The notes beneath the pieces are model-generated. The model searched no databases and was not told where the DNA came from. It worked only from the letters and a program-made list of their open reading frames with translations. The translations under genes and the position numbers were made by a program. From contig NZ_CM001437.1 in the NCBI RefSeq assembly GCF_000243275.1, positions 4,107,079 through 4,171,078 on the forward strand: 64,000 bases of DNA, in the 5' to 3' direction. Positions 10,794 through 64,000 of this stretch are shown one piece after another. The first letter of the stretch is position 1. Every line of letters begins with the position of its first letter. This stretch comes from Myroides odoratus DSM 2801 (lineage in GTDB: Bacteria; Bacteroidota; Bacteroidia; Flavobacteriales; Flavobacteriaceae).

Positions 10794-11501
10794 ATGGCAT
10801 CAAATCCAAAAAGTTTGGGAAATCGCGTCGGTTCATTACAATGTGATAATACGACATTACATCTATTAAAGGCTAATGACTTTGTGGCCAATGCAATTAG
10901 ACAACGTCTAAAAAATGTATGTGTAATCAATGTCTGTTCTTCCCCAGGTTCTGGTAAAACTACATTAATGCAAGAAACGGGAAAACGCTTAGGGAAAGAT
11001 TTAAATATTGCCGTTTTGGTTGGAGATCCTGAAACAGATCGCGATGCGGTTCGCATGAAAGAAGTGGGTTTGAATGCACTTCAGATTGTTACTGGAGGGA
11101 TGTGCCATATTGAAGCACAAATGATCCTTCAAGCTTTAGATCATATCGAGTTAGAAAACCTTGATTTATTGTTTATTGAGAATGTTGGAAATCTATTGTG
11201 TCCTTCTGCTTTTGACTTAGGTGAAGATTATCGCGTTACTTTATTAGCCACAACAGAAGGAGATGATAAACCAAAAAAGTACCCTCGTATGTTCTTAACG
11301 AGTGAATTGATGTTGGTTTCTAAAGCCGATTTATTACCCTATGTTCCTTTTACAGTTGAAAATGTAACGCAAGATGCAAGAGAGGTAAATCCTAATATTG
11401 AGATCTTGACTATCAGCACATTGAATGGAGAGGGAATAGATGCTTGGTGTGAATGGCTACAAGCTCGTGTAGCAGCTAAAAAAGCACAAATTGCGGAATA
11501 A
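10794..11501 (+). CDS. hypB: HypB, GTPase for nickel insertion
   Basis: 235 residues. P-loop SSPGSGKTT at 49-57, Ni/Zn-binding TGGMCHIEA (C104, H105), IENVGNLLCPSAFDLGE (C136) and the base-specificity motif SKAD. All core HypB residues of the G-domain metal site are present. The N-terminal CxxCGC high-affinity site and the His-rich stretch of some HypB proteins are missing, so this is a pure GTPase/metal-transfer form. It lies 12 bp after hypA and 7 bp before a UreE paralog. It is probably a GTP-dependent partner of HypA and UreE in nickel transfer. Confidence 0.95.
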   Translation: MASNPKSLGNRVGSLQCDNTTLHLLKANDFVANAIRQRLKNVCVINVCSSPGSGKTTLMQETGKRLGKDLNIAVLVGDPETDRDAVRMKEVGLNALQIVTGGMCHIEAQMILQALDHIELENLDLLFIENVGNLLCPSAFDLGEDYRVTLLATTEGDDKPKKYPRMFLTSELMLVSKADLLPYVPFTVENVTQDAREVNPNIEILTISTLNGEGIDAWCEWLQARVAAKKAQIAE

Positions 11502-20813: not shown

Positions 20814-21188
20814 ATGGTTCCAGGAGAATATTTTAGTAAAGAAGAAGCTATTATCTGTAATGAAGGTAGAGCTATAACTACAATTACTGTAGTAAATAAA
20901 GGAGATCGACCAATTCAGGTTGGCTCACATTATCACTTTTTTGAAGTTAATAAAATGATGGAGTTTGATCGAGCTGCGGCTTTTGGAAAACGCCTCAATA
21001 TTATTGCAAGTACAGCTGTTCGTTTTGAGCCCGGAGAAGAAAAAGAAGTTGAACTAGTTGTTTATGCCGGAGCACGTAAAATATACGGGCACAATGATTT
21101 GGTTAACGGAGAAACCCATTCAGAAGAAGCTAAAATAGCAGCGATGAAAAAAGTGGAAAAACAATACTTTAAAAACAAAAGTGTATGA
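20814..21188 (+). CDS. ureB: Urease beta subunit
   Basis: 124 residues. Begins MVPGEYF and has the UreB core [50 protein letters not shown] and [14 protein letters not shown]. It has a C-terminal extension of about 20 residues ([19 protein letters not shown]) beyond the minimal length. Its stop overlaps the ureC start by 4 bp (ATGA). Confidence 0.98.
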
Positions 21189-22906
21189 GTTTAAAAGTTA
21201 GTAGAGCAAACTATAACGCAATTTTTGGTCCCACCGTTGGTGATCGTGTGCGTTTAGGAGATACAGCTATCATCATCGAAGTAGAAAAAGATTTTGCAAG
21301 TTATGGTGATGAAAGCAAATTTGGTGGTGGAAAAACAGTACGCGATGGAATGATGCAATCGTCCAATCACTTGAGCCATGAAGGTGTACTTGATATGGTT
21401 ATCACAGGTGCTATTGTCCTAGATCATTGGGGAATTGTCAAAGGCGATATTGGAATTAAAGATGGCAAAATTGTTGGTGTAGGACGTGCGGGAAATCCTG
21501 ATACGATGGATGATGTAACCCCTAATATGATTATTGGAGCTTCAACAGAAGTACACGGTGGTGCAGGTTATATTGTAACTGCTGGAGGAATCGATACCCA
21601 CATCCATTATATTAGCCCAACTCAAATAGAAACAGCTTTATACAGCGGTATTACGACTATGATTGGTGGCGGAACAGGTCCTGCAGACGGAACAAATGCA
21701 ACAACCGTAACACCCGGAAAATGGAGCTTAAAACGCATGATGCAAGCTGTTGATCACTTGCCGATGAACTTTGGTTTCTTCGGAAAAGGAAATGTTGGTA
21801 CGGAAGCCCCAATTATTGAACAAATTGAAGCAGGAGCTTTAGGGGTTAAAATACACGAAGATTGGGGAGCTACACCAGCTACAATCGATAGAGCTTTGAC
21901 TGTTGCAGATCAATACGATGTTCAAGTGGCTATCCATACGGATACCTTGAATGAAGGAGGTTTCTTAGAAGATACCATGCAAGCGATTAATGGCCGAGTA
22001 ATTCACACCTTCCATACCGAAGGAGCAGGTGGTGGACATGCACCAGATATTATTAAATCTGCCATGTATCCCAATGTATTACCTGCATCAACGAACCCAA
22101 CACGTCCTTTTACTAAGAATACGATTGATGAACACCTCGATATGTTAATGGTTTGTCACCACTTGAGTAAAGATATTCCAGAAGATGTTGCTTTTGCTGA
22201 TTCGCGTATTCGCCCAGAGACCATAGCTGCTGAAGATATCCTACAAGATCAAGGGGTATTTAGTATTATGAGTTCAGATTCGCAAGCCATGGGACGCGTA
22301 GGAGAAGTTGTCACTAGAACTTGGCAAACAGCAGATAAGATGAAGAAACAACTTGGTGCATTAGCAGAAGATGAAGGAAATGATAATGATAATTTCCGCG
22401 CCAAACGCTACGTAGCGAAGTACACCATCAACCCCGCAATTGCACACGGAGTTTCTCAGTATATCGGATCAATTGAGCCAGGAAAAATAGCGGATTTAGT
22501 CATTTGGAAACCTGCTTTATTTGGAGCAAAACCGGAAATGATTATCAAAGGCGGGATGATTGCTGCCTCGAAAATGGGGGATGCAAATGCTTCAATTCCA
22601 ACCCCACAGCCAATTATACTACGTACCATGTACGGTGGTTTAGGTAAGGCTGTCACGCAAACTTGTTTCAACTTTGTTTCTCAAGTTTCTTTAACCAAAG
22701 GAATTCAAGAAGAATACGGAATTGAACGTACTTTACTTCCTGTAGTCAATTGTAGAAATATCTCCAAAGCAGATATGATTCACAATCACGCTACCCCTGA
22801 GATTATTGTCAATCCAGAAAATTATGAAGTAAGCATTGACGGTAAAAAAATCACCTGTCAGCCCATAGATGAAGTTGCTTTAGGACAGCGTTACTTCTTA
22901 TTTTAA
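21185..22906 (+). CDS. ureC: Urease alpha subunit, catalytic
   Basis: 573 residues, full length. The di-nickel site is complete: H139 and H141 ([11 protein letters not shown]), the lysine to be carbamylated K222 ([12 protein letters not shown]), H224, H251 (HTDTLNEGG) and H277 ([14 protein letters not shown]). The flap Cys and catalytic His are C324/H325 (MVCHHLSKD), and D365 is in the region [11 protein letters not shown]. Positions follow the Klebsiella enzyme with a constant +5 offset. The enzyme therefore looks active and needs Ni, CO2 and the UreDEFG accessory proteins encoded downstream. A strong hairpin lies between it and ureE. Confidence 0.99.
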
Positions 22907-54906: not shown

Positions 54907-55407
54907 CTAACTGCTTGGTTTTAATCCTTTTTCATAACAGTTAAATACCCCTTTTCTAAACTGTACGGTACCAACAAATGCGTATCCTTTTTTGAGATAC
55001 ACAGCATTAGCTGTATTATTTAAAGCATAAGCATCAAAGCGAATAGAAGCATAGTTATTTTCTGTTGCATATTGTTCTGCATATTGAATCATCTGGCTAG
55101 ATATCCCTTTCCCTTGAGCTATAGGTTTTACAAAAAGACGATGGATTACAATAAAAGGCATAGGGGTACTCCAATTTAAATCATTATACTCTATATCATA
55201 TTCTTGATTTAAGACCATATAAGCCAAAACCTCTCCATTTTCACTGTAGATATAGGCTTGTTTTTTATTTAAATCTTCCTGTATCGTCTTTTCATTTGGA
55301 TAATGCTCATCCCATTGATCAATCCCTTTGGAAAACATATCTTTTTTCACTTGATGGAGTACTTTAACTATTTGATTTACATCACTGGCTGCTACTTGTC
55401 GTATCAT
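54907..55407 (-). CDS. GNAT acetyltransferase
   Basis: 166 residues. GNAT core: MIRQVAASDVNQIVKVLHQVKKDMFSKGIDQWDEHYPNEKTI, YSENGEVLAYMVLNQEYDIEY, VIHRLFVKPIAQGKGISSQMIQYAEQYA with Q-x-x-G-x-x (QGKGIS), and IRFDAYALNNTANAVYLKKGYAFVG. Unknown substrate. Single gene. Confidence 0.88.
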   Translation of the reverse strand: MIRQVAASDVNQIVKVLHQVKKDMFSKGIDQWDEHYPNEKTIQEDLNKKQAYIYSENGEVLAYMVLNQEYDIEYNDLNWSTPMPFIVIHRLFVKPIAQGKGISSQMIQYAEQYATENNYASIRFDAYALNNTANAVYLKKGYAFVGTVQFRKGVFNCYEKGLKPSS

Positions 55408-55828
55408 AAATTATTTTTCTCTTTTTACGAAGGTAGTTAAATAGGAATAACCCTCATTTTATTCTTCTATTTTTTTATTTAAAAACCATTGATACTCAAC
55501 TCTACTACCCGTTTTTAAAGAAGAAAACTAGCTCCCGAATTATTTTTTTGCGTAGAATATACGCCCAATAGCTAGTACACTTGACAACACATAGAGTAGG
55601 GTTGTTATAATACACAGCACCTGTAAAAAGCAGAACAATTATCGTATTAAGCGCTTGTAAACTTTAGTTAGCTCTTTGTATTTTTCCTTGCTCATCCACC
55701 TTCACAACCGTAGAAAGTAAATTAATACACGAAGATGTATCTCAAAATATAGGTACAAAAATTGACGTAATAACAAGGGATTAAATGTATGTAACAATGC
55801 TGAAACTTATATTTCGATAAGGAGTTTT
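55408..55828. other. Intergenic region with possible decayed coding sequence on the minus strand
   Basis: Around 55530-55750 the minus strand reads as broken protein pieces in different frames: DTSSCINLLSTVVKVDEQGK, then KELTKVYKRLIR in a shifted frame, then a hydrophobic LLYVLSSVLAIGRIFYAKK. None has a full-length ORF. This suggests an old, degraded gene, but it may be chance in AT-rich DNA. Confidence 0.3.
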
Positions 55829-55858
55829 AAAAAAAGCACCCCAATGGATGCTTTTTTT
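55829..55858 (-). terminator. Terminator of the small exported protein gene (family B, member 2)
   Basis: aaaaaaagc / gcttttttt stem with a short loop, U-tract on the minus strand. Confidence 0.7.
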
Positions 55859-55866
55859 AGTCGATA

Positions 55867-56178
55867 TTATATAAACTCTTGATTAAGAATTTTTACATAT
55901 ATGGGAAAATAACCATACTCACAAATATAATCTTGTACCATTTGAATAATTGCTTTCGATCCCATTGAACTTATGTTTTTCCCACAAATTTCAAGAGAAT
56001 ATATTGCATGGGGTAAATCGCCCAAACCCGTAGATGTATAAACTTTAAGAGGGCATTCAGGTTCAAAATAAAATGCATAATAACACAGTTCTGGTCTACC
56101 TTCTTCAGGAGGCTTGGGACCTTGAGCAAAAGCGCCGATTGATAACATAAATGCTACTACTAAAAATAAATTTTTCAT
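55867..56178 (-). CDS. Small exported protein (family B, member 2)
   Basis: 103 residues. Signal peptide MKNLFLVVAFMLSIGAFAQ, nearly identical to that of 45487-45813. The mature start is Pro-rich (GPKPPEEGRPE), followed by LCYYAFYFEPECPLKV, YSLEICGKNISSM and QDYICEYGYFPIYVKIL. Four Cys in the mature protein against two in member 1. Family signature as given for member 1. Both leaders carry AATTAACAAA about 70-80 bp before the start. Function unknown. Confidence 0.6.
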   Translation of the reverse strand: MKNLFLVVAFMLSIGAFAQGPKPPEEGRPELCYYAFYFEPECPLKVYTSTGLGDLPHAIYSLEICGKNISSMGSKAIIQMVQDYICEYGYFPIYVKILNQEFI

Positions 56179-56533
56179 ACTAAATAGTTTAAAGTTGATT
56201 ATCTTAAATATAAAGTATATTAATGCAGATAAAAACTAAATCGCTGAAAATTAACAAAATAGGCAGTTTAACTACACAACATTTGATTCATTCATTTTTT
56301 ACCCTACTTGCCCCTTTAATATAAAATAAAGAAATCCCTAACTCGCTATATCAACCAGTTAGGGATTTTAAGCTATGTAAAATCAAATGTATTTTGATTC
56401 TTTTTATTTTTTATAGCTTAAAACAATACCTATTTTCTCATCTCTTGTAATGAGGTCCATCATATGCAATATATGGTCCGGAGAATCTATGCTAATTTTA
56501 TCATCAGCCAAAAATATTTCTCTACTATGGAGC
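56179..56533. other. Intergenic region, about 355 bp, with a hairpin
   Basis: The stem aaatccctaac (56332-56342) / gttagggattt (56358-56368) looks like a terminator. A 43-codon minus-strand frame (stop at 56404-56406, ending MMDLITRDEKIGIVLSYKK) overlaps the end of the next gene, without a good start codon. Confidence 0.4.
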
Positions 56534-57430
56534 TTAACGCTCCATTTTATTGCGATACTCCGTTGGGGTACATTTTAAAAATTGTTTAAAATACTTGGTA
56601 AACGTACCTCTTGAGTTAAAACCACAATCCTCAGCAATCACTTCAATTTTGTGATTCGGTTTTTCTTTCATTCGCTTTGTCGCTTGTTGAATTCTATAAA
56701 AAGCGACTAAATTATAGTAGTTGGTATTCAATTCATTGTTTATTTTCTTTGATATTTCATGCACTGGAACCCCAATTTCCTGACTTAAAGTATCAATATT
56801 AAAGCTTGGATTTAGGTACACTTGTGTACTCGTTTCAAAAAAGTGAAGGATTTGTTTTGTTATCTCTGAATATTCTTTTTCTTTAATGAAATCAATCATC
56901 AGTGTTTGGAATAGATTGTGTTTTAGATAATGAATCAAAGTTAATACAGAATAGACGAGCATGTAAATCTGGATTAAAATAGAGGTAAATTCCAGAAACG
57001 GATTTACTTCACTTAACCCATACTGTACATTTATTAATACATTGATAAGCACTAAAAATAGCGTAGCAATAGAAGTATGGTGCAAATATAAATGAATGGG
57101 TTGATAGCGATATTGATTGATATTACTGGGTTTTAGGAAGTAGAGGATACCTAGTAAGGTAAGACCAAAAGAAATGAGATAATAGGCATTGCTCGTGATA
57201 AAATCCTGTTTGAATAACAGAATCGTACTAGCTTCTAAAGCAATTAAAAGAAAATAAAATCTATAACTACTAATATTAATGAGTATTAGAATAAGTTGCA
57301 CGATAAGGTAAAAATAAACATCCGCATAAGAGTACTTCATGTTTATACTTAGCTTAATCCCGATTAAAAGTATAATGAGACATAAGAAAAGTTTCTTCTT
57401 TAAGGAGGTGTTAGCTTTGGTATTTAACAT
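56534..57430 (-). CDS. Membrane-anchored AraC-type regulator
   Basis: 298 residues. The N-terminal ~175 residues carry about six to seven membrane helices (LFLCLIILLIGIKLSINM, YLIVQLILILINI, FYFLLIALEASTILL, YLISFGLTLLGILYFL and others). The C-terminal ~110 residues are an AraC DNA-binding domain (FNIDTLSQEIGVPVHEISKKINNELNTNYYNLVAFYRIQQ, IEVIAEDCGFNSRGTFTKYFKQFLKCTPTEYR). Signal sensing in the membrane with direct DNA binding is implied. Divergent from another protein of the same type. Confidence 0.85.
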   Translation of the reverse strand: MLNTKANTSLKKKLFLCLIILLIGIKLSINMKYSYADVYFYLIVQLILILINISSYRFYFLLIALEASTILLFKQDFITSNAYYLISFGLTLLGILYFLKPSNINQYRYQPIHLYLHHTSIATLFLVLINVLINVQYGLSEVNPFLEFTSILIQIYMLVYSVLTLIHYLKHNLFQTLMIDFIKEKEYSEITKQILHFFETSTQVYLNPSFNIDTLSQEIGVPVHEISKKINNELNTNYYNLVAFYRIQQATKRMKEKPNHKIEVIAEDCGFNSRGTFTKYFKQFLKCTPTEYRNKMER

Positions 57431-57602
57431 TTTTTTTATTTAAAGATAAGGCTTTAAATAAATATGAATATCCTTTTAGTATACCAATATTCATAAAAAG
57501 TCGGATTTTGCGATTTTATTATTGAATAAGTCCGAAAATTTATTAAATTTGATATTGTATTAATATAATTTTAGTGTTAAACATCTTGTCTTTGCTTAAT
57601 TT

Positions 57603-58811
57603 ATGTTTAATTCTTTACAAATTATAGATATGTATATTCTAATCACATTACTTGTTATTCTTATTCTACTAGCTGGAATTCAAGAATATAGACGTTATAC
57701 AAAAGCTGAAAATTCACTTATTGATTATGATGCTTTTCGACTTTTAAGTATATTGAGTTATTTGATTCTAATTCAGATCTTACTCGTACTAGGACAATTT
57801 TTAATGGCTAAAAATTTTGAAGTTCACCCGTTATGGATCTCTATCTTCATTTTCTATGGACCACATGTATTTTTATTACTCTCCTATTATCGATATAAGG
57901 AAAAACAGCCACTATTCAGAAATTATTTTAAAGATTACTATTATCTCGCTATTTCATTTTTTACGGTCTTTATTTGTATCTTTTTTCTATCAGAGGGGAA
58001 TATCGCTATGGATCAAAATACGCTACATTATTTTTTGTACGTATTCATTATTGTCTACCTCTTATTTTATGCAATCAAAAGCTTTTTTATTCTCAAAGAG
58101 GAAAACAATCTATTGAATCAAGCCCCTTTAGAAAATTTTAAACTGATTAAATTTCTATCTTATTTAATTAGTTTTCTGATTATTTTTTCTAGTATCACCG
58201 TTATTTCTCTCGTGTATAATAATGATCCTATCGTGTTTTTTATCGCTATACTACTTAGTTTAATCTGCTTTTATTTTACAGTGCTTTTACTTCGGTATCG
58301 CGTTTCAACTTCCTTTTTTTTCCAATACGAAGCAAACGGTAGGGGATTAGATTACAATGAAGTTGAACTTGCACTCCATTTAGTAAAAGCTGAAGAAGCA
58401 AATAAGCCAGAAGAGGAGAATAAAGATCCATATGATGGAAAATATGAGAAAGTCAAATTAAGCGATGAAACATTAGCTCAAATTGATATCAAGGTAAGAC
58501 AAGTAATCTTAAAGGAAAAAGCGTATTTAAATGCAGATTTCAAGATTAGTGAATTGGCACATAAAACCAAAATTTCACGTTATTATTTAGCTCAGTATTT
58601 TACCTATATTCACCAAATGAGTTTTAGAGAGTATATCAATTCACTTAGAATTAATGTAATCTTAGAAACGATTAACAGTCATGAAGATAAAAAGCAATTT
58701 ACAGCAAATGAACTATTTTATCAAAGTGCCTTTAACTCCAAAGCTTCTTTCTTTAAGAGTTTTAAACAGGTTACAGGGATGACGCCTTTTGAGTACATCA
58801 AACTGATCTAG
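57603..58811 (+). CDS. Membrane-anchored AraC-type regulator
   Basis: 402 residues. About seven to eight membrane helices in the first ~245 residues (MYILITLLVILILLAGIQEY, LLSILSYLILIQILLVLGQF, ISIFIFYGPHVFLLLSYYRY, SFLIIFSSITVISLVY and others), a charged linker (KAEEANKPEEENKDPYDGKYE) and a C-terminal AraC domain (DFKISELAHKTKISRYYLAQYFTYIHQMSFREYINSLRI, ELFYQSAFNSKASFFKSFKQVTGMTPFEYIK). Divergent from the gene at 56534-57430 across about 170 bp. Confidence 0.85.
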   Translation: MFNSLQIIDMYILITLLVILILLAGIQEYRRYTKAENSLIDYDAFRLLSILSYLILIQILLVLGQFLMAKNFEVHPLWISIFIFYGPHVFLLLSYYRYKEKQPLFRNYFKDYYYLAISFFTVFICIFFLSEGNIAMDQNTLHYFLYVFIIVYLLFYAIKSFFILKEENNLLNQAPLENFKLIKFLSYLISFLIIFSSITVISLVYNNDPIVFFIAILLSLICFYFTVLLLRYRVSTSFFFQYEANGRGLDYNEVELALHLVKAEEANKPEEENKDPYDGKYEKVKLSDETLAQIDIKVRQVILKEKAYLNADFKISELAHKTKISRYYLAQYFTYIHQMSFREYINSLRINVILETINSHEDKKQFTANELFYQSAFNSKASFFKSFKQVTGMTPFEYIKLI

Positions 58812-58843
58812 TTTGTTTTACATACAACTTTACTACTATTAGT

Positions 58844-58877
58844 AAAAGCCACTATAGTTTAACTGTAGTGGCTTTTT
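58844..58877 (+). terminator. Terminator after the membrane AraC gene
   Basis: Stem aaaagccacta / tagtggctttt with six T. Confidence 0.85.
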
Positions 58878-59497
58878 TAATAGTATAATTTAGTTCTGGT
58901 ACTTTTCTTATATACAAAAAAGTCAAGAGCGAACTTCTAGTAGCGATTCTTATCCTTTTAAAGTTAGATAACGCTGGTAGAAATTGATCTTTTGTTTCAT
59001 TTTCAGTATTGCACCTCATTATAATTAAAAAAACATTTCATTCTATAGAGAAAAAATATTCAAATACAAAATGCTGTTTTACACTACTTTACAAGTTCAT
59101 TTTTGTTAGGATACGTTTATTTTTTTGTCCTCTTAGCTTAAACGTACTCGATTATAACAAAATAATACCTATCCTTTTGACTTTATGATGAGTTTTGATT
59201 TAAGCATAAGACAGATAGTAAAACAACTAGTATTAAACGGTAAAATAAGTAGGTTCATTTTTTTAATTGTTGGAAAAAGGAAGAGTAAAAAAGACAAGTC
59301 AAAAACACATTCTATCCTTTCTTTTATTTCGTAAAAAAAAGGCTTAACGATGAAATTTTAAGTCCACAAGGAGAATATGAAAGGAAAGAGAATCTACAAT
59401 TAAATTAAAATGAATGCATATTTTAAAGAAGTATTCCAAAAGGATACTAGGCGGTATTTAATTGTTAGCCGATAAAACAAAGCAACAGCGGCTATTT
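58878..59497. other. Intergenic region, about 620 bp
   Basis: AT-rich, no gene recognised. The longest notable frame is a basic 49-codon ORF from 59186 (MMSFDLSIRQIVKQLVLNGK), without a convincing start site or family resemblance. Confidence 0.4.
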
Positions 59498-59529
59498 TAG
59501 TTTTGTTAAGTTGTTCGTAGGAATAACAA
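59498..59529 (+). promoter_or_regulatory. Promoter and inverted repeat of the ompA-type gene
   Basis: -7 box TAGTTTTG (59498-59505) and inverted repeat TTGTTA (59503-59508) / TAACAA (59524-59529). The same layout is found at 62874-62905 before the surface-protein gene, with the box 82 bp upstream of each ATG. Confidence 0.7.
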
Positions 59530-59586
59530 AAATAGACTCAATTTAAAGCAAATACTTTGAAATTCGTTGGTATAAATGGACAGATT

Positions 59587-61548
59587 ATGAAAAAACAACT
59601 ACTAAGAATAAGTGTATTAAGCCTATTTTTTTTGGCTGGGGTCAATATGCATGCCCAACGAATAACGGAAAAAAAAGCGGATAAAGAATATACTATCCAA
59701 GCTTATAGTGAGGCCATTAAAAGCTATGAACGCCTTACCACAAAAGGATACCGCAATGCGGACTTGTTACAAAAACTCGCTAATTCCTATTATTTTAATG
59801 GAAAATTAACCGAAGCCAATACGTGGTACCAAGAACTTTTTGAAGGGGAGTATGAAGATAAAGGGAGAGAAGAAATTCCATCAGAATATTTCTATCGCTA
59901 TGCACAGACTTTAAAATCAGTCGGAAACTATGAAAAGTCGAGCAAAATGATGGAAGCGTTCACTCGTTTAGAAGCAGCTGATTCAAGAGCCAAGCTCTTT
60001 AATTTAAATAAGAATTTCTTATCTGAGATTGAGCATAAAGAGGAGCGATATGAAATGAAGTCTTTGGCCTTGAATTCCACTTCTTCAGACTATGGAGCAA
60101 CGGTGTTGAATCAACAGCTGATTTTTACATCAGCCCGAAATGAACAGACAACAAAGCCTGTGCACGAATGGACAGATGAACACTTCACTAGTTTGTATGC
60201 TGCAGAAATAAAAGCTGATGGCGCTTTCTCGACACCTAAACTATTTGCAAAGGAAATCAATTCCAAAGTAAATGATGCGACGGCTGTTTTTACGAAGGAT
60301 GGCAATACGATGTATTTTACGCGTAACAATTCCAATAAAAAAGGAAAACAAAAAAATAATACGGATCAATCTTCCTTGTTGAAATTATATAAAGCAACCA
60401 AAAACGAGGATGGCGTATGGGGAGAAGTAATCGAATTGCCTTTTAACTCAGATGATTTTAATACAGCTCATCCTAGTTTAACTCCTGATGGTAAATGGCT
60501 TTATTTTTCTTCCGATCGTCAGGGCACACTAGGACAATCGGATATTTTTAGAGTGTCCATTTCTTCAACGGGTGAATATGGAGCAATTGAAAATTTGGGC
60601 GATAAAATTAATACCGCAGGGAGAGAATCATTTCCCTTCATTTCAAATGATCAGTATTTATTTTTTGCTTCTGATGGTCATCCGGGATTAGGAGGGCTTG
60701 ATATATTCGTTGCTAAACTTACGGATGATGGCCAGGTAGGACCTGTCAGCAATATGGGAACTCCGTTTAATAGCCCATTTGATGATTTTAGTTTTTATCT
60801 TGATCCTCAAGCAAATAAAGGTTTCATAAGCTCGAATCGAGCTGGAGGTAGCGGGGGAGACGATATCTATTCTTTTATCGAAAAAATATGTCAGACTACT
60901 TTAGAAGGAATTGTTTTTAATTCAGAAACTAAAAATGTACTAAATCAAGCTAAAATCACCATTTACGATAATGAATATCACGTGATTGCTACCCAAGTTT
61001 CAAATGAAAAAGGGGAGTATAAAATTGCGGATTTGCTCTGTCATAAAAAGTATCGCATTAAAGCAGAAGCGGCACAGTATAATACCTCAGAGGAAGTACT
61101 TGTGCTAGAGGCCAAACATCAAGAACGTTCTAAATACAATATTGGATTAGTACCTATCCAAGCAACAATGAATCCAACGGATGATTTAGTTAAAAGTTTA
61201 AAACTAAACCCTATTTATTTTGATTTTGATCAGTCAGCCATCCGCCCTGATGCACAAATTGAATTAATGAAAATAGTAGAAGTGATGAAAGCGCATCCAA
61301 CCCTAAAAGTAGAGGTACGCGCTCACACAGATAGTAGAGGAAAAGATGCGTATAATTTAAGTTTGTCGGACCGTAGAGCAAAAGCAACTGTCCGTTGGAT
61401 AATTAACCAAGGAATAGAGGCTAAACGCATCACCGGAAAAGGATATGGTGAAACTCAATTGCTCAATTCATGTAGCAATGGAGTCCCTTGTTCAGCAAAA
61501 GAACACCAAGTAAATAGACGTAGTGAATTTATCATTCTACATAGATAA
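59587..61548 (+). CDS. PorE-like OmpA-family protein (T9SS-associated)
   Basis: 653 residues from ATG 59587 (MKKQLLRISVLSLFFLAG); the reading from TTG 59557 has no signal peptide at its start. Order: signal peptide, TPR-like helices (~20-130, AYSEAIKSYERLTTKGYRNADLLQKLANSYYFNGKLTEANTWY), WD40/PD40 beta-propeller repeats (~160-440, PSLTPDGKWLYFSSDRQG, FPFISNDQYLFFASDGHPGLGGLDIFVAKL, DIYSFIEK), CarboxypepD_reg-like domain (~447-530), and a C-terminal OmpA peptidoglycan-binding domain (~540-650, YFDFDQSAIRPDAQIEL, AHTDSRGKDAYNLSLSDRRAKA). This order matches PorE and the OmpA partners of SprF/PorP modules that anchor T9SS adhesins. The next gene, a surface protein, shares its promoter region. Confidence 0.92.
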   Translation: MKKQLLRISVLSLFFLAGVNMHAQRITEKKADKEYTIQAYSEAIKSYERLTTKGYRNADLLQKLANSYYFNGKLTEANTWYQELFEGEYEDKGREEIPSEYFYRYAQTLKSVGNYEKSSKMMEAFTRLEAADSRAKLFNLNKNFLSEIEHKEERYEMKSLALNSTSSDYGATVLNQQLIFTSARNEQTTKPVHEWTDEHFTSLYAAEIKADGAFSTPKLFAKEINSKVNDATAVFTKDGNTMYFTRNNSNKKGKQKNNTDQSSLLKLYKATKNEDGVWGEVIELPFNSDDFNTAHPSLTPDGKWLYFSSDRQGTLGQSDIFRVSISSTGEYGAIENLGDKINTAGRESFPFISNDQYLFFASDGHPGLGGLDIFVAKLTDDGQVGPVSNMGTPFNSPFDDFSFYLDPQANKGFISSNRAGGSGGDDIYSFIEKICQTTLEGIVFNSETKNVLNQAKITIYDNEYHVIATQVSNEKGEYKIADLLCHKKYRIKAEAAQYNTSEEVLVLEAKHQERSKYNIGLVPIQATMNPTDDLVKSLKLNPIYFDFDQSAIRPDAQIELMKIVEVMKAHPTLKVEVRAHTDSRGKDAYNLSLSDRRAKATVRWIINQGIEAKRITGKGYGETQLLNSCSNGVPCSAKEHQVNRRSEFIILHR

Positions 61549-61621
61549 ATAGAGCTCAAAATTCTATTGATTTACAGTAAACTACTAGATTACATAAATA
61601 AAATGAATGTTGAATGAAAGT

Positions 61622-61728
61622 AAAACAGCAATACTTTGAAGTAGGTTGAAATAAATGGGCTTAAATTTTGTGTTGCGCCCTGATAAAAAAGGGCTTTCTA
61701 AACAACGATCAAAGTATTGTTCTGTTTT
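61622..61728 (+). ncRNA. Structured element copy 1
   Basis: Outer arms AAAACAG-CAATACTTTGA and TCAAAGTATTG-tt-CTGTTTT are perfectly complementary over 18 bp with a 2-nt bulge. Inner stem GGGC (61657-61660) / GCCC (61677-61680) around a loop containing TGTTG. Candidate RNA or DNA structural element. Confidence 0.6.
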
Positions 61729-61798
61729 GCTTTATCTAATTAAACTAGTAATCTAACGGTTAAAAAATTGAAAAATAAGGTCATAGTTGAAATGGTGA

Positions 61799-61895
61799 AA
61801 ACAATACCTTGAGGTGTTGAAAGGAAAAGGATTTTTTTGCAGATCGTGTTGTTCCTTTTAGTAAGAACTTTCGATAAGCCAAAGAGGTATTGTTT
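61799..61895 (+). ncRNA. Structured element copy 2
   Basis: Outer arms AAACAATACCT / AGGTATTGTTT, 11 bp. Inner stem AAAAGGA (61825-61831) / TCCTTTT (61853-61859), again with TGTTG in the loop. Confidence 0.6.
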
Positions 61896-62008
61896 AACTT
61901 AAATAAATTTCATCTAGGCCATCAGGGATATAATTTTACTTGCTTCGATTTTTATCGAGGGAGTATAGAAAAAGACAAATTACGTCAAATTTGTATGGGG
62001 ATTACTGT

Positions 62009-62118
62009 AACGACAACAATACCTTGAAGTTTTTGGAGGCTAAAAGGGCTTTATTTAGCTGGTGTTGTCTCTTTTAAATAAAGAGCTTCCGGATAAACTA
62101 GTAAGGTATTGTGTCGTT
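62009..62118 (+). ncRNA. Structured element copy 3
   Basis: Outer arms AACGACA-a-CAATACCTT / AAGGTATTG-TGTCGTT, 16 bp with a 1-nt bulge. Inner stem TAAAAGGG (62041-62048) / CTCTTTTA (62069-62076), TGTTG in the loop. Confidence 0.6.
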
Positions 62119-62323
62119 TTAAAAAAAGAAGAAGCGCTATTCGGTTTGACAAATTCTTTTTTTGATTGCAAAGGAAGTTGAATTAAAAATTTGCACACCA
62201 GATAATGACTGGAAAGTAAACCCATTTTTTGAATGCCTTTTGTAAGAAACTCACCATAAAACAGCATGTAAACCCTTTGTTTTATTAAAATAATAAATTT
62301 CAAAACAACTATTTTTTTCCTAC

Positions 62324-62396
62324 GATCCTGCTGTAGGATCTAAAATTTACAGGTAGCCAAAAAAGAGGGAACATTCATTAGTTTCCCTCTTTAATT
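62324..62396 (+). ncRNA. Pseudoknot-like hairpin with terminator, copy A
   Basis: GATCCT-gctgt-AGGATC hairpin (62324-62340); its loop CTGTA can pair with TACAG at 62348-62352. A terminator follows (aaagagggaa / ttccctcttt, 62362-62392). Confidence 0.5.
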
Positions 62397-62557
62397 TACA
62401 ACCAATAATAGTCATTTTTAGTATTACATACATTACATTGATTTGAATCTTGACTTATCTAAAGTCAGATGTTGTTTATGAAAGGGACTTCGTTCAGCCA
62501 AGTCCCTTCATTAAAAAAAAGAATGTTTAGGTTAGCTATTGAAATATTTTTTTTCAC

Positions 62558-62636
62558 CATCCTGCTGTAAGATGTAAAAATACAGTTGAACTGCTTGAAG
62601 AAAGAGAGAGAACCCACAAAGTTCTCTCTTTTTTTG
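62558..62636 (+). ncRNA. Pseudoknot-like hairpin with terminator, copy B
   Basis: CATCcT-gctgt-AaGATG hairpin (62558-62574), loop CTGTA complementary to TACAG at 62581-62585, followed by terminator aagagagagaac / gttctctctt and seven T. The loop and TAAAA-n-TACAG are kept while the outer base pair differs from copy A (G-C to C-G). Confidence 0.5.
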
Positions 62637-62873
62637 TTTCTATCGTTTCTTATCGTTCTATTTTCATTTACTTCTCCCAACATAAACTACCCCATTTGAT
62701 ATTATTCTGTTCGTTTATCTTATTCGAGAACAAGATAACTAGGACAAAAAAATTGAAGGAACTGATGAACGTAAAAATAGAATTGTTCCTTTTCTCATCC
62801 CTTATAAATAGGGGGCTAAGCGAGAGGGTATTGAATTGTTAGGGTGCTAAATGAAGGCATTAACAAAGTGTTT

Positions 62874-62905
62874 TAATTTTGTTAACTTGCGCTAAAGAAT
62901 AACAA
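62874..62905 (+). promoter_or_regulatory. Promoter and inverted repeat of the surface-protein gene
   Basis: TAATTTTG (62874-62881) with TTGTTA (62879-62884) / TAACAA (62900-62905), matching the ompA-type promoter in sequence, spacing (15 bp between arms) and distance to the ATG (82 bp). Confidence 0.7.
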
Positions 62906-62962
62906 ATGTAAACTCTTTTTGTGGTAATTGTGGTGACATTCGTTTGTATAAATCAACGAATT

Positions 62963-64000
62963 ATGAAAAGACAATTACTTTGTGTGGCAGCTTTTTTATT
63001 TGTGTTGTCCCTAAAAGCTCAAGTAGGTATTGGTACAAGAACACCAAACAAATCTGCAGAGCTTACGATTATTTCTAAAGATAAAGGTTTACTTATTCCA
63101 AGTATAACATTAGAAAGTACAGGTGATACCCAAACAATTTCCAATGGAAATGTAGAGAGTCTAGTAGTGTATGCCAGTAAAAAACAAGGAGATATTCTTC
63201 CTGGTTTTTATTATTGGAACGCCACAAAATGGGTGCGAATCGTATCCGATGTGGATATTAGTGATTTAGTAATTAAGAATTTTGAAGAAATTGTCAAAAA
63301 TGAGACGGTTCAAAATCTTATAAATAAAACAGGAGGAAATGTATTTTATGATGGTACACGATTTGAATACCTCGATCGCTCAGGTTCAAGAATCGAATTG
63401 CTTTTATCCACTATAGTTAAAGCCAACGAGACCGTAACAACTTTAGTGGCCAATACCGATGGAACCTATACCTATACATCGGAAAATGGTACCGAAACTA
63501 TCATCGATATTCCAGCCTCAGTAGCGAATAACTTCGAAACGATTGTCAACAACAATCCAGAGAAAGTAAAAGAGATTATCGAACAAGTAGCGAAAGACGT
63601 TGAAGGGAATGTTACCTATAACGGAACAGAGTTAGTATACAAAGATGGAAACGGAGATGATCAAGTCATCAACTTAGATCAACTGGTTAAAGCCAATGAA
63701 ACCGTAACTACTTTACTTGCCAATACCGATGGTACGTATACCTATACATCCGAAAATGGTACCGAAACTATCATCGATATTCCTGCTTCGGTAGCCAACA
63801 ACTTCGAAACGATTGTCAACAACAATCCAGAGAAAGTAAAAGAGATTATCGAAAAAGTAGCCAAAGATGTTGAAGGCAATGTTACCTATAACGGAACAGA
63901 CTTGGTGTACAAAGATGGAAACGGAGATGATCAAGTGATTGATCTCGATCAATTGGTTAAAGCCAACGAAACCGTTACAACTTTACTTGCTAATACCGAC
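62963..64000 (+). CDS. Repetitive surface protein (T9SS adhesin-like), 3' end outside window
   Basis: 346 codons to the window edge with no stop. Start ATG 62963 with signal peptide MKRQLLCVAAFLFVLSLKAQ. VGIGTRTPNKSAELTIISKDKGLLIPS is the usual start of flavobacterial exported repeat proteins. From about residue 152 it consists of 90-residue repeats (270 nt: 63416-63685, 63686-63955, then a third) with KANETVTTL, NTDGTYTYTSENGTETIIDIP, NNFETIVNNNPEKVKEII and GNVTYNGTELVYKDGNGDDQV. The repeats are almost identical in DNA. Sits downstream of the PorE-like gene and shares its promoter type, so a co-expressed adhesin is likely. Confidence 0.85.
   Translation, partial: MKRQLLCVAAFLFVLSLKAQVGIGTRTPNKSAELTIISKDKGLLIPSITLESTGDTQTISNGNVESLVVYASKKQGDILPGFYYWNATKWVRIVSDVDISDLVIKNFEEIVKNETVQNLINKTGGNVFYDGTRFEYLDRSGSRIELLLSTIVKANETVTTLVANTDGTYTYTSENGTETIIDIPASVANNFETIVNNNPEKVKEIIEQVAKDVEGNVTYNGTELVYKDGNGDDQVINLDQLVKANETVTTLLANTDGTYTYTSENGTETIIDIPASVANNFETIVNNNPEKVKEIIEKVAKDVEGNVTYNGTDLVYKDGNGDDQVIDLDQLVKANETVTTLLANTD
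63416..63955 (+). repeat. Tandem 270-nt coding repeats
   Basis: Two complete 270-nt units and the start of a third (63956), each beginning GTTAAAGCCAA(C/T)GA and differing mainly at silent sites. Encodes 90 residues per unit. Confidence 0.9.

Follow-up and report, generated by a model that had tools for sequence, protein, structure and literature searches.

The window, that is, the whole stretch of 64,000 nucleotides analysed here, covers positions 4107079-4171078 of the 4.30-Mb single-contig genome of Myroides odoratus DSM 2801. Close to its end, a gene of the OmpA family is followed on the same strand by a gene encoding an adhesin-like protein, and the approximately 1.4 kb between them, which contains no convincing gene, holds an array of three hairpins. 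An initial reading made from the letters only (hereafter the sequence-only reading) drew attention to these hairpins; it did not see the place of the array after the OmpA gene and ahead of two copies of a second structured motif. The features of the region, including scores from a covariance model of the second, pseudoknot motif (R2), are as follows:

59557..61548, + strand: upstream gene, encoding a PD40 and OmpA domain protein of 663 aa (longest frame; Pfam PF07676, PF00691)
61617..61734, + strand: hairpin copy 1; core P1 61629-61639 with 61709-61719; extension AAAACAG/CTGTTTT; fold z -5.5
61670..61676, + strand: central GUGUUGC of copy 1, complementary to the 5' arm GCAAUAC
61792..61902, + strand: hairpin copy 2; core P1 from 61802 to 61892; weak extension; fold z -3.2
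61846..61852, + strand: central GUGUUGU of copy 2, complementary to the 5' arm ACAAUAC
61943-61960 and 61975-61994, + strand: two small hairpins read by eye in the spacer between copies 2 and 3; spacer 96.0% identical in Myroides odoratus XSfan
62004..62124, + strand: hairpin copy 3; core P1 from 62017 to 62111; extension AACGACA/TGTCGTT; fold z -5.8
62062..62068, + strand: central GUGUUGU of copy 3, complementary to the 5' arm ACAAUAC
62297..62368, + strand: pseudoknot element A; stem 62324-62329/62335-62340; loop CTGT 62331-62334 with ACAG 62349-62352; R2 66.7 bits, training member
62359..62392, + strand: terminator-like hairpin after pseudoknot element A
62478..62525, + strand: hairpin with an A-rich tail between the pseudoknot elements; arms 79% complementary; 96.6% identical in XSfan
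62531..62602, + strand: pseudoknot element B; stem 62558-62563/62569-62574 with one mismatch; ACAG 62582-62585; R2 55.4 bits, training member
62599..62635, + strand: terminator-like hairpin after pseudoknot element B
62963..64000, + strand: downstream gene, encoding a long repetitive protein, adhesin-like by eye (start set by eye; continues beyond the window)

The upstream protein also shows a carboxypeptidase-regulatory-like domain slightly under the Pfam cut-off, and the downstream protein has none but scattered Pfam matches of repeat type. Slightly beyond the window end (L047, positions 11187-11199), the frame of the adhesin-like gene is broken and a long frame comes after it in another phase; phase variation, decay, and a sequencing error are possible causes. 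No tRNA or tmRNA was found in 55000-64000, and the minus-strand ORF at 62055-62303 has no Pfam match.

The three hairpin copies are diverged, with pairwise identities of 53.3, 60.0, and 65.8%. Folded as plus-strand RNA, copies 1, 2, and 3 reach -36.8, -29.5, and -40.4 kcal/mol, and for each copy none of 200 dinucleotide shuffles was as good; the minus strand (-27.4, -19.1, and -32.0 kcal/mol; z -4.4, -3.1, and -5.9) is 8-10 kcal/mol weaker, with similar z-scores. The common ends and the central TGTTG described in the sequence-only reading were borne out, with GTGTTG present in all three copies as their sole common interior run of more than 2 nt; an invariant six-base run was reached by 1077 of 20000 column shuffles. 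That reading had also held that the extensions differ between copies yet pair within each, which is true of copies 1 and 3 and not of copy 2: counted with G.U pairs and offsets of up to 2 allowed, copy 1 has 12 uninterrupted pairs (a frequency of 2e-4 in 20000 flank pairs drawn at random from this spacer), copy 3 has 7 (0.016), and copy 2 has 4 (0.18). Less secure than claimed is the inner stem, said to change in both arms together: its pairing is ambiguous, the GCCC strand pairing downstream instead in the minimum-energy fold of copy 1 and another inner pairing being preferred in that of copy 3, and helix 3 is 83.3% paired in the six-sequence alignment described below. At the two small hairpins between copies 2 and 3, fold windows starting at 61870-61950 give z values of only -1.2 to -1.7.

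Myroides odoratus XSfan (G282) shows the same order of OmpA gene, three hairpins, two pseudoknot elements, and adhesin-like gene. Between the two genomes, hairpin copies 1, 2, and 3 are 98.3, 97.3, and 96.6% identical, copy 3 having 4 gap columns in addition, compared with 89.1-91.2% for four spacers and 96.0 and 97.1% for the two others. Changes affect 9 of 346 hairpin sites, compared with 54 of 539 sites in the four spacers other than sp2 and sp4 (Fisher p 1.3e-5), 60 of 708 when sp2 and sp4 are added (p 1.7e-4), and 95 of 652 OmpA third codon positions (p 1.7e-10). Indels are excluded from all of these counts; the hairpins have 5 gap columns and the spacers 88, of which a single spacer accounts for 84. 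Single substitutions at paired sites keep the plus-strand pair in 4 of 6 cases, two pairs becoming G.U (equivalent to A.C on the other strand) and two going from U.G to U-A; the other two break a pair, one in copy 2 and one in copy 3 beside an ambiguous indel. Deletions also fall on paired sites of copies 1 and 3, two further gaps at paired sites result from trimming of the XSfan copy, and both genomes' versions of each copy still fold into a long hairpin. Because the substitutions mostly keep plus-strand pairs, two of them as G.U, the comparison favours, on few changes, a plus-strand RNA under selection rather than a DNA hairpin. The selection for a folded RNA or DNA hairpin proposed in the sequence-only reading is therefore supported as to selection, with the hairpins kept above most spacer sequence and 4 of 6 substitutions keeping pairs, and narrowed to RNA; the case rests on few changes, the array being in two genomes only. 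A short peptide gene was rejected, as the GTG TTG frames of the three copies are poorly kept between the genomes: the copy 2 frame keeps 18 residues with one changed, the copy 1 frame has two residues changed and an earlier end in XSfan, and the copy 3 frame ends after 13 residues in XSfan versus 39.

In an alignment of six sequences (three copies from two genomes), a three-helix core of 138 cells is 92.0% paired versus 37-58% for slid versions, over which it is favoured by having been chosen on the same six sequences. Its covariation score of 0.351, against 0.243 +/- 0.025 in shuffles, was reached by 1 of 500 shuffles, as was the percentage paired. Both partners have changed in 5 of 23 pairs, which is no excess over shuffles (mean 3.2, with 56 of 500 reaching 5); further pair types number 12, below the 14.5 of shuffles; and 7 of the 10 core P1 pairs are invariant. 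Covariation is supportive of the fold and not decisive, because only six sequences from two genomes are compared.

A covariance model built from the six hairpin sequences (R1) gives 107.6, 106.5, and 116.1 bits for copies 1, 2, and 3, all of them training members, and finds in the DSM 2801 genome three copies only, at one locus (150 candidates scored). In searches of more than 40 genomes, run with strict filters that distant relatives could escape, three of 398 genus genomes match at E up to 0.1 and only DSM 2801 and XSfan exceed 100 bits, with three copies each, the third match (G048, 29 bits) being taken as chance; in 158 genomes of the order, three match at E up to 0.01 and only DSM 2801 exceeds 100 bits, the matches at L201 and L202 (32.6 and 31.4 bits) being discarded as lying mostly inside a long open frame. 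With laxer filters, a match at E up to 1 turns up in 9 of 17 Myroides-like genomes, the best beyond the six copies reaching 26.0 bits, and seven matches of 23.6-26.0 bits in these genomes were taken as chance. Forty OmpA 3' regions yield no R1 match above 26.4 bits (L144, likewise taken as chance). A pattern search of the genus matches 70 of 398 genomes, the array being confirmed by DNA search and model only in DSM 2801 (G000) and XSfan, and a DNA search at the array finds three other genomes with matches of 22-35 bases. Pattern scans return 14 stretches in genome contigs and 12 in viral contigs, and only the XSfan stretch holds three copies; the other 25, each folded once, were judged chance as single and unlike the copies' interior, some of them (L052, L055, L074) nevertheless forming hairpins. 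Phages have no match to the array region, and among plasmids a 42-base match at the second terminator occurs in 106 Enterococcus records (best 20 of 106). The bare 11-base end CAATACYTTGA occurs at 20 sites in the DSM 2801 genome (4 in the array, 16 elsewhere), compared with 4 for a reversed-pattern control. The covariance-model search that the sequence-only reading had suggested reveals no dispersed IS/REP-like copies and an array in two genomes only.

Rfam 15 assigns no family to the hairpins at the gathering cut-off. Its only match in the window lies elsewhere (5_ureB_sRNA, RF02514, 78.2 bits, 21336-21635, minus strand, antisense to the ORF at 21185-22906) and belongs to a family named from another phylum. 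At permissive settings (E up to 10, 61540-62960) there are 12 matches, all far under the gathering score, and the best of those overlapping a hairpin is SpF43 (20.1 bits versus 70). We rejected 6S-Flavo RNA (RF01685), which has no match at the gathering cut-off or among these 12. The two resemble each other as RNAs of approximately 110 nt in Bacteroidetes with paired ends, but the hairpins here are tandem, and the 6S-Flavo RNA of this genome lies elsewhere (C1:3136715, 99.6 bits). 6S-Flavo has a rod shape, and 6S RNA binds RNA polymerase and templates a product RNA. In the literature, subscription journals being outside the search, no such element is described for Myroides among the matches listed. 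The hairpins are a real, small, lineage-restricted array of structured RNAs with no sign of mobile debris and a putative function, and the array is an unlisted RNA family known from two genomes.

It is very unlikely that the array is a DNA element, whether a MITE/REP remnant, an attC-like recombination hairpin, or a protein-binding inverted repeat. Long tandem inverted repeats with common core ends, and the 16 further genome sites of the bare 11-base end, would agree with such an origin; however, R1 finds three copies at one locus in the genome, the terminal arms differ between copies, and pairs are kept as G.U. In addition, no transposase or integrase is named among the matches listed by Pfam for 15 neighbouring translations (for one of them, the best 25 of 26 families), in agreement with the sequence-only reading. 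The attC core boxes R' and R'' are GTTRRRY and RYYYAAC; by eye, none stands at the hairpin ends, and an integron attC array was rejected on this ground and for want of an integrase among the matches listed for those translations. REP/BIME elements or MITEs, of which many dispersed copies would be expected, were rejected because R1, with 150 candidates scored, gives one locus. REP/BIME are intergenic mRNA hairpins between co-directional genes and plausible mRNA-end stabilisers, and the array is like them in both respects, although its hairpins are longer and, in the model search, confined to one locus. We regard as equally improbable that the copies are neutral quasi-palindromes, in which template-switch repair of imperfect palindromes would match the arms without selection. 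Template switching can make compensatory changes in a single event, and presence in two genomes only is compatible with it, but it predicts neither the hairpin identity of 96.6-98.3% beside four spacers at 89.1-91.2% (two other spacers being at 96-97%) nor the conserved central GTGTTG.

The second motif, which follows the hairpins twice, consists of a T-run, a short stem with the loop CTGT, a TAAAA tract, a loop-pairing ACAG, and then a terminator-like hairpin. Across 34 collected sequences, 33 of them distinct, pairing reaches 88.1% in the stem and 99.2% in the pseudoknot helix, versus 31-42% overall for slid versions, figures that are inflated inasmuch as many of the first 25 sequences were picked by required pairing or motif letters. 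Nine later sequences, found with a model lacking the pseudoknot pairs, keep the loop-tail pairing in 9 of 9 cases; the pseudoknot helix hardly varies, and its support is conservation more than covariation. At E up to 0.01, R2 matches 13 of the 20 genomes handled, with seven matches in DSM 2801, several of the 20 having supplied training sequences and the match in G185 being weak; in 159 family genomes, a draw with almost no other genus member searched with strict filters, it matches DSM 2801 only. In 17 of 40 OmpA 3' regions, taken from the best protein matches in related genomes, the motif lies approximately 35-85 bases 3' of the OmpA stop, and at other copies the nearest upstream gene encodes an AraC-type protein, a His/Lys-rich protein, or a likely ketoacyl-ACP synthase (labels by eye). 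Eight motif loci have nothing at the Rfam gathering cut-off, and ten others give 11 matches at E up to 1, all below cut-off; Phe_leader (28-29 bits versus 55) overlaps the motif in L111 and L126. Loci at which the motif was also seen are L003, L006, L007, L043, L045, L110-L120, L122, L124, L126, L128, L130, L133, L187, and L189-L196. The pseudoknot-terminator motif is possibly a new RNA family, wider than that of the hairpins. Several OmpA genes have other surroundings: a second one in XSfan (L145) is separated from an adhesin-like gene by a 310-base spacer that is predicted to fold into several hairpins, an OmpA paralogue in DSM 2801 (L121) has, unlike it, a spacer of 33 bases, and in L143 and L148 (G087 and G278) OmpA is followed by a different hairpin without a T-run (by eye and one fold each).

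A terminator scan of 61500-63000 finds none on the plus strand before 62367. The sequence immediately 5' of each copy lacks a TAnnTTTG box with a spaced TTG, even when one mismatch is permitted in the box, though promoter-like boxes with one mismatch, preceded at 17-23 bases by a TTG, are present within copies 1 (61662) and 2 (61832) and beyond copy 3 (62186). Flavobacteria use other sigma motifs, beyond a sigma-A-type scan (PMC9723704); the F. psychrophilum motif TAnnTTGY was considered for the 5' arm (TACYTTGA) and rejected, being similar but with a misfit at the last base. Since no plus-strand terminator precedes 62367 and no sigma-A-like promoter adjoins the copies, the simplest transcript would run from OmpA through the array. 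The array lies on the coding strand between the OmpA stop and the first terminator-like sites, which fits a hairpin element of an mRNA 3'UTR, and it would occupy what is a short OmpA 3'UTR in the 17 regions from related genomes, where the pseudoknot-terminator comes approximately 35-85 bases after the stop.

We tentatively favour, at somewhat less than an even chance, a lineage-specific 3'-UTR or intercistronic hairpin array that would act on the stability, processing, or termination of the OmpA transcript. The three plus-strand structured RNAs would be paralogs that arose by tandem duplication and then diverged under selection for the fold, each predicted to form a long imperfect hairpin with a 10-bp core that is longer in copies 1 and 3. 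They would be carried in a long 3'-untranslated or intercistronic part of an OmpA-family transcript that is expected to extend from OmpA across all three hairpins as far as the pseudoknot-terminator elements. Acting in cis, they may block 3'-to-5' decay, be cut by a double-strand nuclease, or both, which would fix the 3' end and stability of the OmpA mRNA and uncouple it from the adhesin-like gene; hairpins cut out in this way could persist as small RNAs. Against this cis action stand the equal conservation of two of the six spacers, the length of approximately 1.4 kb for a 3'UTR, the 2 of 6 paired-site substitutions and the deletions that break pairs, and the promoter-like boxes, which leave room for separate promoters.

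Those boxes, inside copies 1 and 2, also bear on whether the copies could be three independently transcribed sibling sRNAs acting in trans with GUGUUG as an exposed pairing seed, a possibility that we consider unlikely and yet worth serious attention. Tandem diverged copies with one invariant interior hexamer look like such RNAs. The Neisseria RNAs NgncR_162/163 reportedly lie side by side, and the hairpins here are like them in being related structured RNAs in adjacent positions. These two are reportedly sibling sRNAs (PMC13104608). A flavobacterial precedent for independent structured RNAs comes from Flavobacterium psychrophilum, in which 85 new independent RNAs were mapped and strong structure was predicted for 18 of 45 non-antisense ones (PMC9723704). 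In contrast to sibling sRNAs, none of the copies is immediately preceded by a sigma-A-type promoter or immediately followed by a terminator-like site in the consensus scans, and GUGUUG may instead owe its conservation to its complementarity with the 5' arm. Rfp18, with predicted pairing in an intergenic region and an apparent uncoupling of two operon genes, is comparable by description as a structured RNA in a flavobacterium, but it acts on protease mRNAs from elsewhere (PMC9723704). The match between GUGUUGY and the 5' arm underlies a further, improbable proposal, that the hairpins are bistable RNAs in which the 5' arm RCAAUAC would pair first with GUGUUGY and then be displaced by the 3' arm, as a co-transcriptional strand-exchange switch or delay. 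All six sequences have 7 of 7 of these pairs, one changed on both sides, versus 16-65% paired in slid versions, and in folds of growing prefixes of copies 1 and 3 the 5' arm sits on the central loop for as long as the 3' arm is absent, at 0.78-1.0 in copy 1 after this pairing has formed and at 0.44-0.98 in copy 3. However, copy 2 is weak (at most 0.31), and in XSfan the pairing is only brief in copy 2 (reaching 0.98) and, in copy 3, low for the majority of prefix lengths. The full fold is better by 3.4-15.7 kcal/mol, 36 of 500 shuffles attain the covariation score, and 38-70 of 1000 mononucleotide shuffles per copy show interior complementarity as good, in a test that took a different GTGTTG as the loop of copy 2. 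Because copy 2 deviates and six invariant bases arise in 1077 of 20000 shuffles, we treat strand exchange as a minority reading. An elaboration in which the three bistable hairpins would serve as serial co-transcriptional timers before the pseudoknot-terminators, setting OmpA termination against continuation into the adhesin-like gene, seems slightly less probable again.

Regulatory RNAs of flavobacteria are little studied, and this locus is a compact natural experiment, with three paralogous RNAs of one fold and separate sequence histories. If the hairpins, under the favoured cis-acting interpretation, are merely mRNA-end stabilisers, they would be an ordinary case and yet an unlisted family. 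The main interest lies in an orphan RNA family next to a second unlisted motif of Myroides-like genomes, which recurs there at the ends of OmpA genes. If either motif does control the expression of surface proteins, it would provide a post-transcriptional handle on OmpA/adhesin loci in Bacteroidota.
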